Shown here one piece after another: positions 14,663-18,867 of a DNA stretch of 36,930 nt (positions within the stretch are counted from its first letter, which is position 1; each line of letters opens with the position of its first letter). Source of the stretch: Curvivirga aplysinae (GTDB taxonomy: Bacteria > Pseudomonadota > Alphaproteobacteria > UBA8366 > Aestuariispiraceae); the NCBI RefSeq assembly GCF_009711445.1, contig NZ_SMMC01000195.1, positions 1-36,930 of the forward strand, given 5' to 3'. The position numbers and the translations under genes were made by a program. The notes beneath the pieces are model-generated. The model made no database searches. It had not been told where the DNA came from and saw only the letters and a program-made list of their open reading frames with translations.

Positions 14663-16219
14663 TTAAAGTTTCTTCTTTTTTTGGCGACGTCTTTGAACAG
14701 AAGACGGAATATTCATTGCTTCGCGGTATTTGGCGACAGTACGGCGGGCAATATCCATACCTTCGCCTTTTAAGATTGCTACAATCTTGTCATCAGAAAG
14801 GACTTTCTTAGGGTCTTCTGCATCAATAAGTTTCTTGATGCTGTGTTTTACTGATTCTGCTGAATGAGACTCGCCAAAGCTGTTTGTGCTGGAAATCGCA
14901 GAAGTAAAGAAATACTTCAGTTCAAAAATACCACGAGGCGTTGCGATATATTTGTTGGATGTAACCCGACTTACGGTGGATTCGTGCATTTCAATTGCTT
15001 CGGCAATATCACGTAACACCAATGGTTTGAGATGAGAGACACCATATCGGAAAAAACCATCTTGTTGGCGTACAAGTTCAGTTGATACTTTCATGATGGT
15101 TTGTGCCCGCTGATGCAGACTTTTTACGAGCCAGTTTGCAGTTTGAAAACGTTCGTTCAGATAATCTTTATCATCTTTGCTTCTCGCTACAGCACTGATT
15201 GTACCATAATAGCTTTCATTGACCAAAACACGTGGCAAGGTTTCAGAGTTGAGGTCAATTCGCCATCCCCCCTCTGGCGTAGGACGCATCAAAACATCTG
15301 GAATCACAGGTTCTGCAACAATGGTATCAAATTCAAGAGCAGGTTTGGGGTTCAGAGCGCGGATTTCTGCGACCATTTCCAACAAGTCTTCATCATCTAC
15401 ACCGCATAAGCGTTTTAACGCGCGGGCATCTTGATTGGCCAATAAATGAAGGTTGTTCAGCAGCCTCTCCATAGCCGGGTCATATCGATTTTGATCTTTT
15501 AATTGCAGCGCTAAACATTCTTTGAGGTCACGCGCGAAAACGCCAGGTGGATCAAACTGTTGAAGTGTTTCTAAAACAGTCTCTACCAATTCTAAATTGC
15601 ATCCTAGGTTATCTGCGGCATCTTTTAAATCACCAGTAAGCCAACCGCTGTCATCTAAATAATCAATCAGATACAGAGCAACCATTTTTTCTGCATTCCC
15701 GAGATTACTCATTTGCATCTGTTCTATCAAATGATCGCCTAGAGATTTATTTTCGCTCAAAGTTGCTTCTAGGCTGCTAACATCGTCGCTAAAATCTGAT
15801 CTTCCACCACTGCCAGTTCCATTATATAGGAGTGAAGATTCATATCCGCCGCCTTCTACCGCACCTGCACCGGCATAATCTCCATCATAGGTATTGCCAT
15901 AATCTGCATCTAATGGGGTGTCTTGCCCATCACCAGATATATTCCCGCTGCCCAATAGGTCTGAGCTGTCAAAATCTTGTGCATTTTCGGAAGGCGCTGC
16001 GTCTTGTATTTCTGTGGAAGGCTGTTCGGCGGCATTACGCAGGGGGTCCGCTTGCCCTTCATCGCGTTCCAGCATCGGGTTTTGTTCGAGTTCTGATTCA
16101 ACAAACCCGGCCAGCTCAGTATGTGACATTTGCAACAATTTAATTGCTTGTTGCAGTTGTGGTGTCATTACCAGCGACTGTGATTGCCGTATGTCCAGTC
16201 TTGGACCTAAGTCAGCCAT
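14663..16219 (-). CDS. rpoN: RNA polymerase sigma-54 factor
   Basis: Sigma-54 (518 aa) directs RNA polymerase to -24/-12 promoters that need enhancer-binding ATPases, chiefly for nitrogen metabolism, motility and related systems. Region I is the Q-rich activator-interacting N-terminus (QSLVMTPQLQQAIKLLQMSH, then LESELEQNPMLE-like sequence). The acidic, low-complexity region II (about 50-150) contains the DSSDLLGSGNISGDGQD stretch. The core-binding and DNA-binding domains follow, and the RpoN box ARRTVAKYRE is at 491-500. AAGGGG lies just upstream of the ATG. It begins 29 nt after lptB and precedes hpf and ptsN, the classical arrangement. Confidence 0.97.
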   Translation of the reverse strand: MADLGPRLDIRQSQSLVMTPQLQQAIKLLQMSHTELAGFVESELEQNPMLERDEGQADPLRNAAEQPSTEIQDAAPSENAQDFDSSDLLGSGNISGDGQDTPLDADYGNTYDGDYAGAGAVEGGGYESSLLYNGTGSGGRSDFSDDVSSLEATLSENKSLGDHLIEQMQMSNLGNAEKMVALYLIDYLDDSGWLTGDLKDAADNLGCNLELVETVLETLQQFDPPGVFARDLKECLALQLKDQNRYDPAMERLLNNLHLLANQDARALKRLCGVDDEDLLEMVAEIRALNPKPALEFDTIVAEPVIPDVLMRPTPEGGWRIDLNSETLPRVLVNESYYGTISAVARSKDDKDYLNERFQTANWLVKSLHQRAQTIMKVSTELVRQQDGFFRYGVSHLKPLVLRDIAEAIEMHESTVSRVTSNKYIATPRGIFELKYFFTSAISSTNSFGESHSAESVKHSIKKLIDAEDPKKVLSDDKIVAILKGEGMDIARRTVAKYREAMNIPSSVQRRRQKKKKL

Positions 16220-16248: not shown

Positions 16249-17874
16249 CTAGCGATCAAATTCGTCACCAAGATAAACTCGTTTCACTTCTTCATTGCGA
16301 ACGACCTCATTAGGTGTTCCTTCCATTAACACCTTGCCACCATGAAGAATATACGCACGATCAACAATTCCCAATGTTTCTCGTACATTATGATCAGTTA
16401 TCAAAACTCCTAATCCACGATCTTTCAAATGACTAACCAATTCACGGATATCTCTTACTGCGATGGGATCAATGCCAGCTAATGGTTCATCAAGTAAAAT
16501 AAAATGTGGCTGGGTTGCAAGAGCACGTGCAATTTCAAGGCGTCGACGTTCGCCACCTGAAAGAGCGACCGATGGGCTACGACGAAGATGGGAGATTGAA
16601 AATTCTTCCATTAAAGATTCAAGCATGGTTTCTCGTTCATCGCGACTTCCACCAACCGCTTCAAGAACCGCACGGATATTTTGTTCCACAGTCAAACCAC
16701 GGAAGATAGACGCTTCTTGAGGAAGGTAACCAATCCCCATGCGTGCACGACGATACATCGGCAAATCAGTGATTTCCTGACCGTCGAGGGAGATGACGCC
16801 TGCATCAGCGGGAATAAGCCCGCAAACCATATAGAAGCATGTGGTTTTCCCGGCGCCATTTGGTCCCAGAAGACCAACGGCCTCACCACGTTTCACATAG
16901 AGAGAAACATCTTTTAGAACAGGTCGTTTCTTATATGTTTTGCCTAGGTTACGAATTTCTAAACCTGCCGCGCCCGGCATATTTATAGAGTTACCAAATG
17001 TTGAAGTTTTTGAAGTTGTTGCTTTTTCCTGTGAAGGAAATGGCACCATATCTTCTTGCTCAAGAGAGCCTTCTTCGGTTTTAATATCTGCTGTTACTGT
17101 ATCCAAGATAGGAGTCACTTCTTCAAGAGGATTGGAAGGATCAAGAGATGGTGTGTCTTTACTGGATTGCAAGACGGTTGGAATATTGATTTCCAACTCA
17201 TTTCTTTCCTTATCTTTTTCCTCTTCCAGAATATCAATCTCAGTTTCTTCCATAGTAGGTAGCTTAGCTTCATCTAACTTTATAAGATTCTTTGATAATG
17301 TTGCTTCTGCAGTTGCGGATTTACCTAGCGTTAAATCATCGAGTTTGCCAGCACTCGGTGGCGGTAATATGTCCCCGGATGGCGACGCTTCTATTTGTTC
17401 GGTTTCGTCTGATTGATCGATTTTGAAGGCAGGTGGCGGTGGTGGTGTCACGGACAAATCATGAGATTTTTCAAGATTTTCTTTTAAAATTTCACCTGGA
17501 TTTTCGATGTAGGGCTTGGAAGGATATTCTTCTTTAGCAACTTCAATTCTACTCAGGATATTTTGAATATTCTGACTTAAATCCTTGTCAAGTAAAGGGG
17601 GGGCTTCTTTGTCTTGGCTGTCAGCAGTACTATCCTCAACTTCCGATGTTTGGTCGTTGATTAGAACTCTTTCTTCGATGGGGTCCTCTACGACTTCTTT
17701 TTCTTGCTTTGGAGGAATTTCCTGCTCTAAATCTAGAGAGGCACGTAAGGCACGTCGAGCTTCAGCAAAGGACTGTTCCCCGCGACTTTCATTTGAATCG
17801 CGTTCATTCAAGCTTTGCTGTGTCTTGGATCTTTTAAGATCCTTACTGTCATTTCGGCCTTTGAACCAGCTCAT
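16249..17874 (-). CDS. lptB: LPS export ATP-binding protein LptB with long N-terminal extension
   Basis: The C-terminal ~240 residues are a complete LptB ATPase that powers LPS extraction by LptFG: Walker [10 protein letters not shown] (337-345), Q-loop [13 protein letters not shown], signature [15 protein letters not shown] (438-452), Walker [14 protein letters not shown] (458-470) and H-loop ITDHN. Before this lie about 298 residues with no recognisable fold. A basic head ([17 protein letters not shown]) and an [13 protein letters not shown] helix are followed by acidic, Pro/Ser-rich sequence with TPPPPP and repeated E/D clusters. LptB is usually about 240 aa. An in-frame ATG at 16980 (M299, [16 protein letters not shown]) would give a standard 243-aa LptB but has no good ribosome-binding site. 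The start at 17874 is also weakly supported. Either the extension is real or two forms exist. Confidence 0.92.
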
Positions 17875-18039
17875 TATTTCGTATCAACCCTTATTGAAGG
17901 AGAAGGTGTTACCTTCAAGATAGCATTCTTCTGAACAGTATATAGCTGCTTCGTGTCAAACGACAATGTGTAATAAGCAAAAACTATACCGAATTTGATT
18001 TTTTTTGGATTATTAGGTGTGCTGTAGAGAGTTAGGTGC

Positions 18040-18867
18040 TCAATTACTGTTCAAGATCAAGCCTTTAACACGGCTATTGCCGCCAAGTAGCTTGCTGCGT
18101 CCTGTTTTCATATTTACTTCTGCGCATTCACCATTTAATTGGTTTTCTCCACGAGAAATTTTTACATTTCCGCATAAGGTCGCAATTTCTTTTTGAAGGT
18201 CGTAAACACCTTCTCGACCAGTCACAATTTCTGTTGGTGTTGAGATATGGACGCCGCTTGTGGCATCAATACGGGTTACTTCATTTTTACCGGTAGTGGC
18301 ATTCTCTCCGATGAAGGCAGTCATAACACCAGCTTGCATGCGTTTGTCTTCACTGATTAATAAGGCATCGCCACGTGCAACAGCGATGTTTTTTTGAGAC
18401 CAAAATTCCAAAGCATCACGTGCGGTGATTGTGGCGCGTGGATCAATAAGGCGCAGGTTTTGCCCGACCAATACAGCAACTTGTTGTTGCATATGGAATG
18501 CGCCTCTATCTCCATAAGCATTAGTGTCTTGCTGATTTACAACAACAGACCCTTCAGCATCGATACGGTGAACGTCTTGTTTATCATCGGCATTGGTTCG
18601 ATAGTGTGCGATTAACTCATCAGAGGTGATATTTAAGTCACCTTGTTTTGCAATCGCATTGCCAATTGCCTTGTAATAACCTTCTTGCTTTCCGGGTTCT
18701 TGCACCCACTCAATTCCATTGTCAGCTTCGATCTCGACGGGTTCGTTGGATTGGTCCTGTTGCAGGTTTGCTGTTTGCGCAAAAGCATGCATATGAAAAC
18801 TTGCCAAAAACATACTTAGGGCAAGGAAAAAACTGTTCCAAGTGTTACGTTTCGGTTGGTTTGTCAT
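18040..18867 (-). CDS. lptA: LPS transport periplasmic protein LptA (OstA-like)
   Basis: This periplasmic bridge protein carries LPS from LptC to LptD. The 275-aa product has a signal peptide (core FFLALSMFLASFHMHAFAQ, cleavage after AFA) and the OstA/LptA beta-jellyroll, visible as strands such as PVEIEADNGIEW, NITSDELIAHY, IDAEGSVVVNQQ and the closing CGNVKISRGENQLNGECAEVNMKTGRSKL. It is somewhat longer than E. coli LptA (about 185 aa), as usual in alphaproteobacteria. It lies 46 nt downstream of lptC. The following 165-nt gap before lptB has no clear promoter. Confidence 0.92.
   Translation of the reverse strand: MTNQPKRNTWNSFFLALSMFLASFHMHAFAQTANLQQDQSNEPVEIEADNGIEWVQEPGKQEGYYKAIGNAIAKQGDLNITSDELIAHYRTNADDKQDVHRIDAEGSVVVNQQDTNAYGDRGAFHMQQQVAVLVGQNLRLIDPRATITARDALEFWSQKNIAVARGDALLISEDKRMQAGVMTAFIGENATTGKNEVTRIDATSGVHISTPTEIVTGREGVYDLQKEIATLCGNVKISRGENQLNGECAEVNMKTGRSKLLGGNSRVKGLILNSN

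Follow-up and report, generated by a model that had tools for sequence, protein, structure and literature searches.

Is the long open frame in front of an otherwise ordinary LptB part of the protein, and, if so, what might it do? The LptB motor is essential and normally kept to a minimum, and its control is ascribed to LptF, LptG and LptC. In the stretch of Curvivirga aplysinae DNA analysed here (36,930 nucleotides, hereafter the window), the LptB frame runs to 541 residues, where a bare ATPase of ~240 residues would be the usual size.

The identity of the gene is firm. TIGR04406, the LptB equivalog model (cut-off 240 bits), matched residues 305–540 with a score of 372.7 bits; NF008144, another LptB model, gave 322, under its cut-off of 381. 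The core matched solved LptB chains in the PDB, among them 6mjp_A, 6mhu_A and 5l75_A. The best 15 bacterial chains listed are 241–282 residues long, whereas the window protein has ~300 residues before the core. Residues 337–345 (GPNGAGKTT), 438–442 (LSGGE), 460–464 (LLDEP) and H495 are invariant in all 14 members of the family Aestuariispiraceae examined; we take these to be the Walker and signature motifs, Walker B with the following glutamate, and the switch histidine of ABC ATPases. The window shares the gene order lptC-lptA-lptB-rpoN with known LptB2FG systems, and genes for S30AE (ribosome modulation) and PTS EIIA also lie downstream. Two PF03739 genes for LptF/LptG are present in the genome, and no second LptB was seen there, the other 67 ABC matches being at most 37% identical. 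Our observations confirm a full-length LptB with a complete ATPase core plus ~300 extra N-terminal residues, as the first-pass annotation had proposed when it described an extension of ~298 residues in one uninterrupted frame. Its choice of M299 as the LptB boundary needs a small correction: the methionine is in place, but the model match begins the core at ~303–305, so that M299 lies just before it. Coordinates are collected in Table 1.

Table 1 Features of the lptB locus in the window
Feature	Position	Strand	Remarks
lptC, 239 aa	18914..19633	(-)	Pfam LptC
lptA, 275 aa, directly upstream of lptB	18040..18867	(-)	Pfam LptD_N/OstA_2
Gap from lptA stop to lptB start, 165 nt	17875..18039		Weak promoter-like match at 17966-17937
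LptB long form, 541-aa ORF	16249..17874	(-)	Single frame, ATG at 17874
LptB N-terminal tail, residues 1-299	16978..17874	(-)	Predicted mostly disordered; acidic
Long-form start, MSWFK	17860..17874	(-)	MSWF common to relative L009 (MSWFRKSKNKK)
ARRALRAS motif, residues 39-46	17737..17760	(-)	AR(R/Q)ALRAS also in L009 and L010
Two predicted tail helices, residues 97-116 and 126-138	17461..17586	(-)	AlphaFold2
Pro5 run, residues 144-148	17431..17445	(-)
Internal ATG (M299), proposed alternative start	16978..16980	(-)	No Shine-Dalgarno
LptB ABC ATPase core and stop codon, residues 300-541	16249..16977	(-)	TIGR04406; Pfam ABC_tran; PDB LptB chains
rpoN, 518 aa, downstream of lptB	14663..16219	(-)	Pfam Sigma54 domains

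Promoter-like matches such as the one in the gap before lptB were about equally frequent in shuffled sequence. The PF03739 search returned open frames of 761–777 aa in five of the 14 family genomes, and a fusion of LptF and LptG (L172, L176, L180, L181 and L182) was dropped because a single stop codon separates the two genes in each of the five, although they lie in one frame.

The first-pass annotation had tied its reading to retention of the extension in related genomes, and all 14 genomes of the family keep it. The LptB open frame spans 314–628 aa in these 14, compared with 270–309 aa in 25 genomes of the same order outside the family (the order sample comprised 43 genomes, 39 with an LptB match; the four without one are all non-family). 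Consistently, the distance from the lptA stop to the LptB core is 367–1253 nt at all 14 family loci and 79–198 nt at 15 non-family loci, a sixteenth having no lptA match. With start codons picked by us, on which these values depend, the family proteins are 309–587 residues long and their tails, with a median of 303 residues over all 14, measure 70, 85, 147, 204, 221 and 236 residues, followed by eight of 302–348, a fivefold variation. The shortest (70–85 residues), in L012 and L013 of genus g4, come close to the non-family ceiling. Tail G+C runs from 41 to 83% across the family, tracking genome G+C. We regard the tail as almost certainly real and family-wide, and it was most likely gained before the family diversified.

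A class-wide search covered 386 genomes, 347 of them with an LptB match, and was examined among the best matches listed. From outside the family we took 24 loci with listed frames of at least 328 aa together with one from G057, and read 24 of these 25 (all except L138); listed frames of 333–339 aa in G335, G348 and G110 were left out of the reading. Widespread LptB tails in the class were rejected, as most of the 24 loci look like arginine-rich read-through of another gene's frame in high-G+C DNA, the first plausible start giving ~236–295 aa; this verdict is our own reading, L155 and L156 alone having been measured against lptA. The frame of L167 is truncated by the contig end. L155 (G148, 423 aa) and L156 (G317, 395 aa), from two other alphaproteobacterial families, also carry, between lptA and the core, a long tail rich in Pro, Ala or basic residues. 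These extensions look real, and they were probably gained independently of the one in the window's family.

In a survey of LptB length across phyla (49 of the 65 loci L038–L102 read), Rhodopseudomonas palustris XCP (L044) and the Bradyrhizobium sp. D3_Bin_4 MAG (L043) also have an in-frame extension, with a possible hydrophobic-basic start, MVDL(L/R)GMFRRR, followed by Pro/Ala-rich sequence. It is ~80–88 residues long at most, counted from the first ATG, and no sequence in common was recognised by eye. Long upstream frames in L085, L049, L048 and L099 look by eye like non-coding read-through and were not accepted as tails. Since L155, L156, R. palustris and Bradyrhizobium have extensions, an N-terminal extension of LptB is not in itself unique; what sets the present one apart is how long it is and that an entire family has kept it. 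No account of such a tail was found among the titles and abstract openings listed by a literature search that had most subscription papers and bioRxiv outside its scope.

An open frame of this length could in principle be a ~900-nt leader that happens to lack stops, with the true start downstream, and at most of the 24 loci read elsewhere in the class a frame of similar length seems indeed to be spurious. We consider this highly improbable for the window. The LptB frame of the tail contains no stop, the other five frames contain 5 to 30, and first-order Markov simulation at 41% G+C produced 16.8 stops per frame on average, with not one open tail in 20,000. In G+C-richer relatives some simulated tails did stay open (L009, 0.4%; L026, 0.1%; L014, 7.9%), so the open-frame argument is weaker there; however, the lptB frame is open across the stretch in all 14 family genomes. 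Further opposing a chance leader, the MSWF start is common to two genera, and nine of the 14 family tails begin with MS(D/E)(R/N) or MADR.

Codon-level comparison supports the earlier suggestion that the open frame reflects selection, and it likewise tells against a chance leader. In four close pairs of genus g6, three of them drawn from one genome trio and therefore non-independent, dN/dS was 0.20–0.29 for the tail and 0.00–0.02 for the core. Because protein-level alignment of tails can bias dN downwards, we ran a neutral control in which one tail was evolved without amino-acid selection and realigned; in 60 runs the means were 0.72–0.96 and the lowest value was 0.52. Among five wider pairs, three gave tail dN/dS of 0.53–0.68, values that fall within or close to those of the neutral control, and two were saturated, including the sole pair that contains the window's tail; the evidence for selection hence comes from the close pairs, all of them outside the window's genus, which is represented by one genome. 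Our computations thus support purifying selection on the extension in close relatives of another genus (g6), and from the sequences the tail looks translated and constrained.

Where translation begins bears on both the leader reading and on a further proposal of the first-pass annotation, that initiation at 17874 and at M299 yields two isoforms, one long and one of normal LptB length. The long-form ATG in the window is preceded by AAGG at 14 nt, unusually far upstream, which would suit a downstream start, and a similarly placed AAGG occurs in several relatives. Given the long spacing, we regard 17874 as a likely but unproven start site. As for a second isoform, the window does have an in-frame ATG four codons before the core, as does L013 at five. 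In L010 an ATG preceded by AAGGAG stands 20 codons ahead of the core, and three codons into the core L021 and L024 each carry a GTG with AAGG. M299 is poorly conserved among the 14 family members. An ATG within one codon of its place occurs in one relative only, L013; M299 itself has no Shine-Dalgarno sequence, and L010 is the only family member in which such a sequence precedes an ATG there. In the stretch that reaches from 25 codons ahead of the core to 5 codons beyond its start, neither L014 nor L022 has any ATG, GTG or TTG, and the remaining family members have such codons but without a Shine-Dalgarno sequence. We therefore find little in favour of a normal-length product from M299 and hold the two-isoform reading to be quite improbable.

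The tail of the window protein is predicted to be mostly disordered, in line with the disorder that the first-pass annotation had asked to have checked. On the charge-hydropathy plot all 14 family tails fall on the disordered side of the line (negative score). In an AlphaFold2 model, whose alignment had non-query rows essentially limited to the core, the core has pLDDT mostly of 82–97 and most tail blocks have 34–50, and every listed segment below 50 falls in residues 1–301. Within the tail, helices were predicted at residues 10–48, 97–116 and 126–138, with blocks mostly above 60, and more weakly at 212–226. The blocks over residues 101–130 reach 79–82, flanked by blocks of 60 and 63. The helix noticed at first reading (residues 38–50), which carries ARRALRAS, lies mostly inside predicted helix 10–48, where blocks 11–50 have pLDDT of 61–71, and the poly-proline run reported with it is present. 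To judge by eye, two later stretches that resemble helices may also be present in L009 and L010.

The charge of the tail had been described as basic at first and then acidic. The first 30 residues are indeed basic, if only mildly (net +2), and residues 1–302 together carry a net charge of −33. Acidity, however, is peculiar to the window's genome and not a conserved property of the tail, since the other 13 family tails range from −4 to +12. No Pfam family was detected in the first 299 residues at E values up to 1, and a search of the window's genome with the tail returned the tail itself only (E up to 10).

Short motifs recur in this divergent sequence. AR(R/Q)ALRAS is present in three of the 14 family tails, from three genera; LPEPP(R/K)PR in six, which are all six of one genus; and ERRxxxDRR in six, from four genera, at 45–51 residues before the core. 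The patterns were picked after inspection of the sequences, and in none of 2000 shuffles did the count of any of the three reach that observed. ERRxxxDRR is absent from the other eight tails, the window's included.

As possible roles, the first-pass annotation had named tethering of LPS export to another complex, membrane binding, and control of ATPase access to LptFG. The most likely reading, to which we give about an even chance, is that the tail serves as a flexible arm for binding to the membrane or to a partner, a function that we infer. In all probability the protein made is the complete LptB, preceded by a tail that is translated and largely disordered, and its ordinary ATPase should work with LptF and LptG in the usual way. 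In LptB2FG the LptB dimer sits beneath the inner membrane, so each complex would carry two tails on the cytoplasmic side of that membrane. Short helical or arginine-rich motifs in the tails might bind the membrane surface or a partner protein, and the chain between them would be free to change. Such an arm would suit a chain that is disordered apart from a small number of short motifs under constraint; in the window, the best candidates would be the MSWFK start with the basic residues that follow it and the ARRALRAS helix. Several observations count against the arm: tail identity is 25–38% in the five wider pairs (three of these being comparisons inside a single genus), length spans a fivefold range, net charge is unconserved, the wider-pair dN/dS is near-neutral or saturated, and ERRxxxDRR is missing from eight tails and not clearly enriched as a DNA pattern.

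Most of these observations feed the main rival, in which the tail is translated but does little: a tolerated disordered appendage shaped by repeat slippage and by a weak constraint to stay soluble and unstructured. Lengths from 70 to 348 residues, a G+C content that follows the genome from 41 to 83%, hypervariable sequence and a net charge that varies across the family would all be expected of it, as would the wider-pair dN/dS (0.53–0.68 or saturated), and short repeats are visible (for example RPQEVRPQEV and QSSPTQSSPT). An appendage of low function accounts less readily for close-pair dN/dS values below all 60 neutral simulations, for the absence of any loss in 14 genomes, and for ERRxxxDRR being held 45–51 residues from the core across four genera. 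On balance we judge this rival somewhat unlikely. If the tail is functional as an arm or otherwise, up to 348 residues would amount to an added layer of control or localisation on LPS export, absent from model organisms. Because tail length and sequence vary so much, the family offers a natural test set for the function of disordered tails under sequence drift.

A parallel is found in LssB, a type I secretion permease/ATPase (TIGR03375). An open frame of 144–477 residues precedes its folded part in each of the 14 family genomes (L230; L235–L249 without L245). In the window's genome (L230, G000:C190) this is an acidic, low-complexity frame of up to 233 residues, with ERRNGERR 22 residues before the folded domain. 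Like LptB, LssB of this family thus carries a long, low-complexity N-terminal stretch. In 10 of the 14 genomes spaced arginine pairs occur within the final 80 residues of this stretch, where shuffles gave 0.50 on average; this looser pattern was picked with the sequences in view and was applied to family LssB tails only. The stricter [E/D]RR-(2–4 residues)-[E/D]RR was present in 4 of 12 LssB tails read within the family and in none of four read outside it. LssB differs from LptB in belonging to another class of transporter, and its tails occur outside the family too.

At the DNA level, the ERRxxxDRR pattern gave 29 hits in four genomes and its reversed control 22 (window's genome, 0 versus 3; the others, 5 versus 7, 7 versus 3 and 17 versus 9); as these counts are close, the raw count is not clearly enriched. 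The hits found included LptB tails, the type I secretion ATPase and proteins of ~55–58 residues, and many others lie in doubtful frames. Two of the small proteins, L233 (G001) and L234 (G004), combine ERRxxxDRR with VDRRSGIDRRE or QDRRSGIDRRE; the one that was scanned had no Pfam match. It is conceivable, though in our estimate distinctly unlikely, that in this family an element of the ERRxxxDRR type serves as a docking tag shared by LptB and LssB, unrelated ABC machines of the inner membrane that would both carry it on their disordered tails, and also by small stand-alone proteins, in which case one partner, or the surface of the membrane, would gather or regulate both machines. Apart from these motifs, a 158-aa open frame runs antisense across the LptB tail of the window (16940–17416, plus strand) and is probably a by-product of tail composition.
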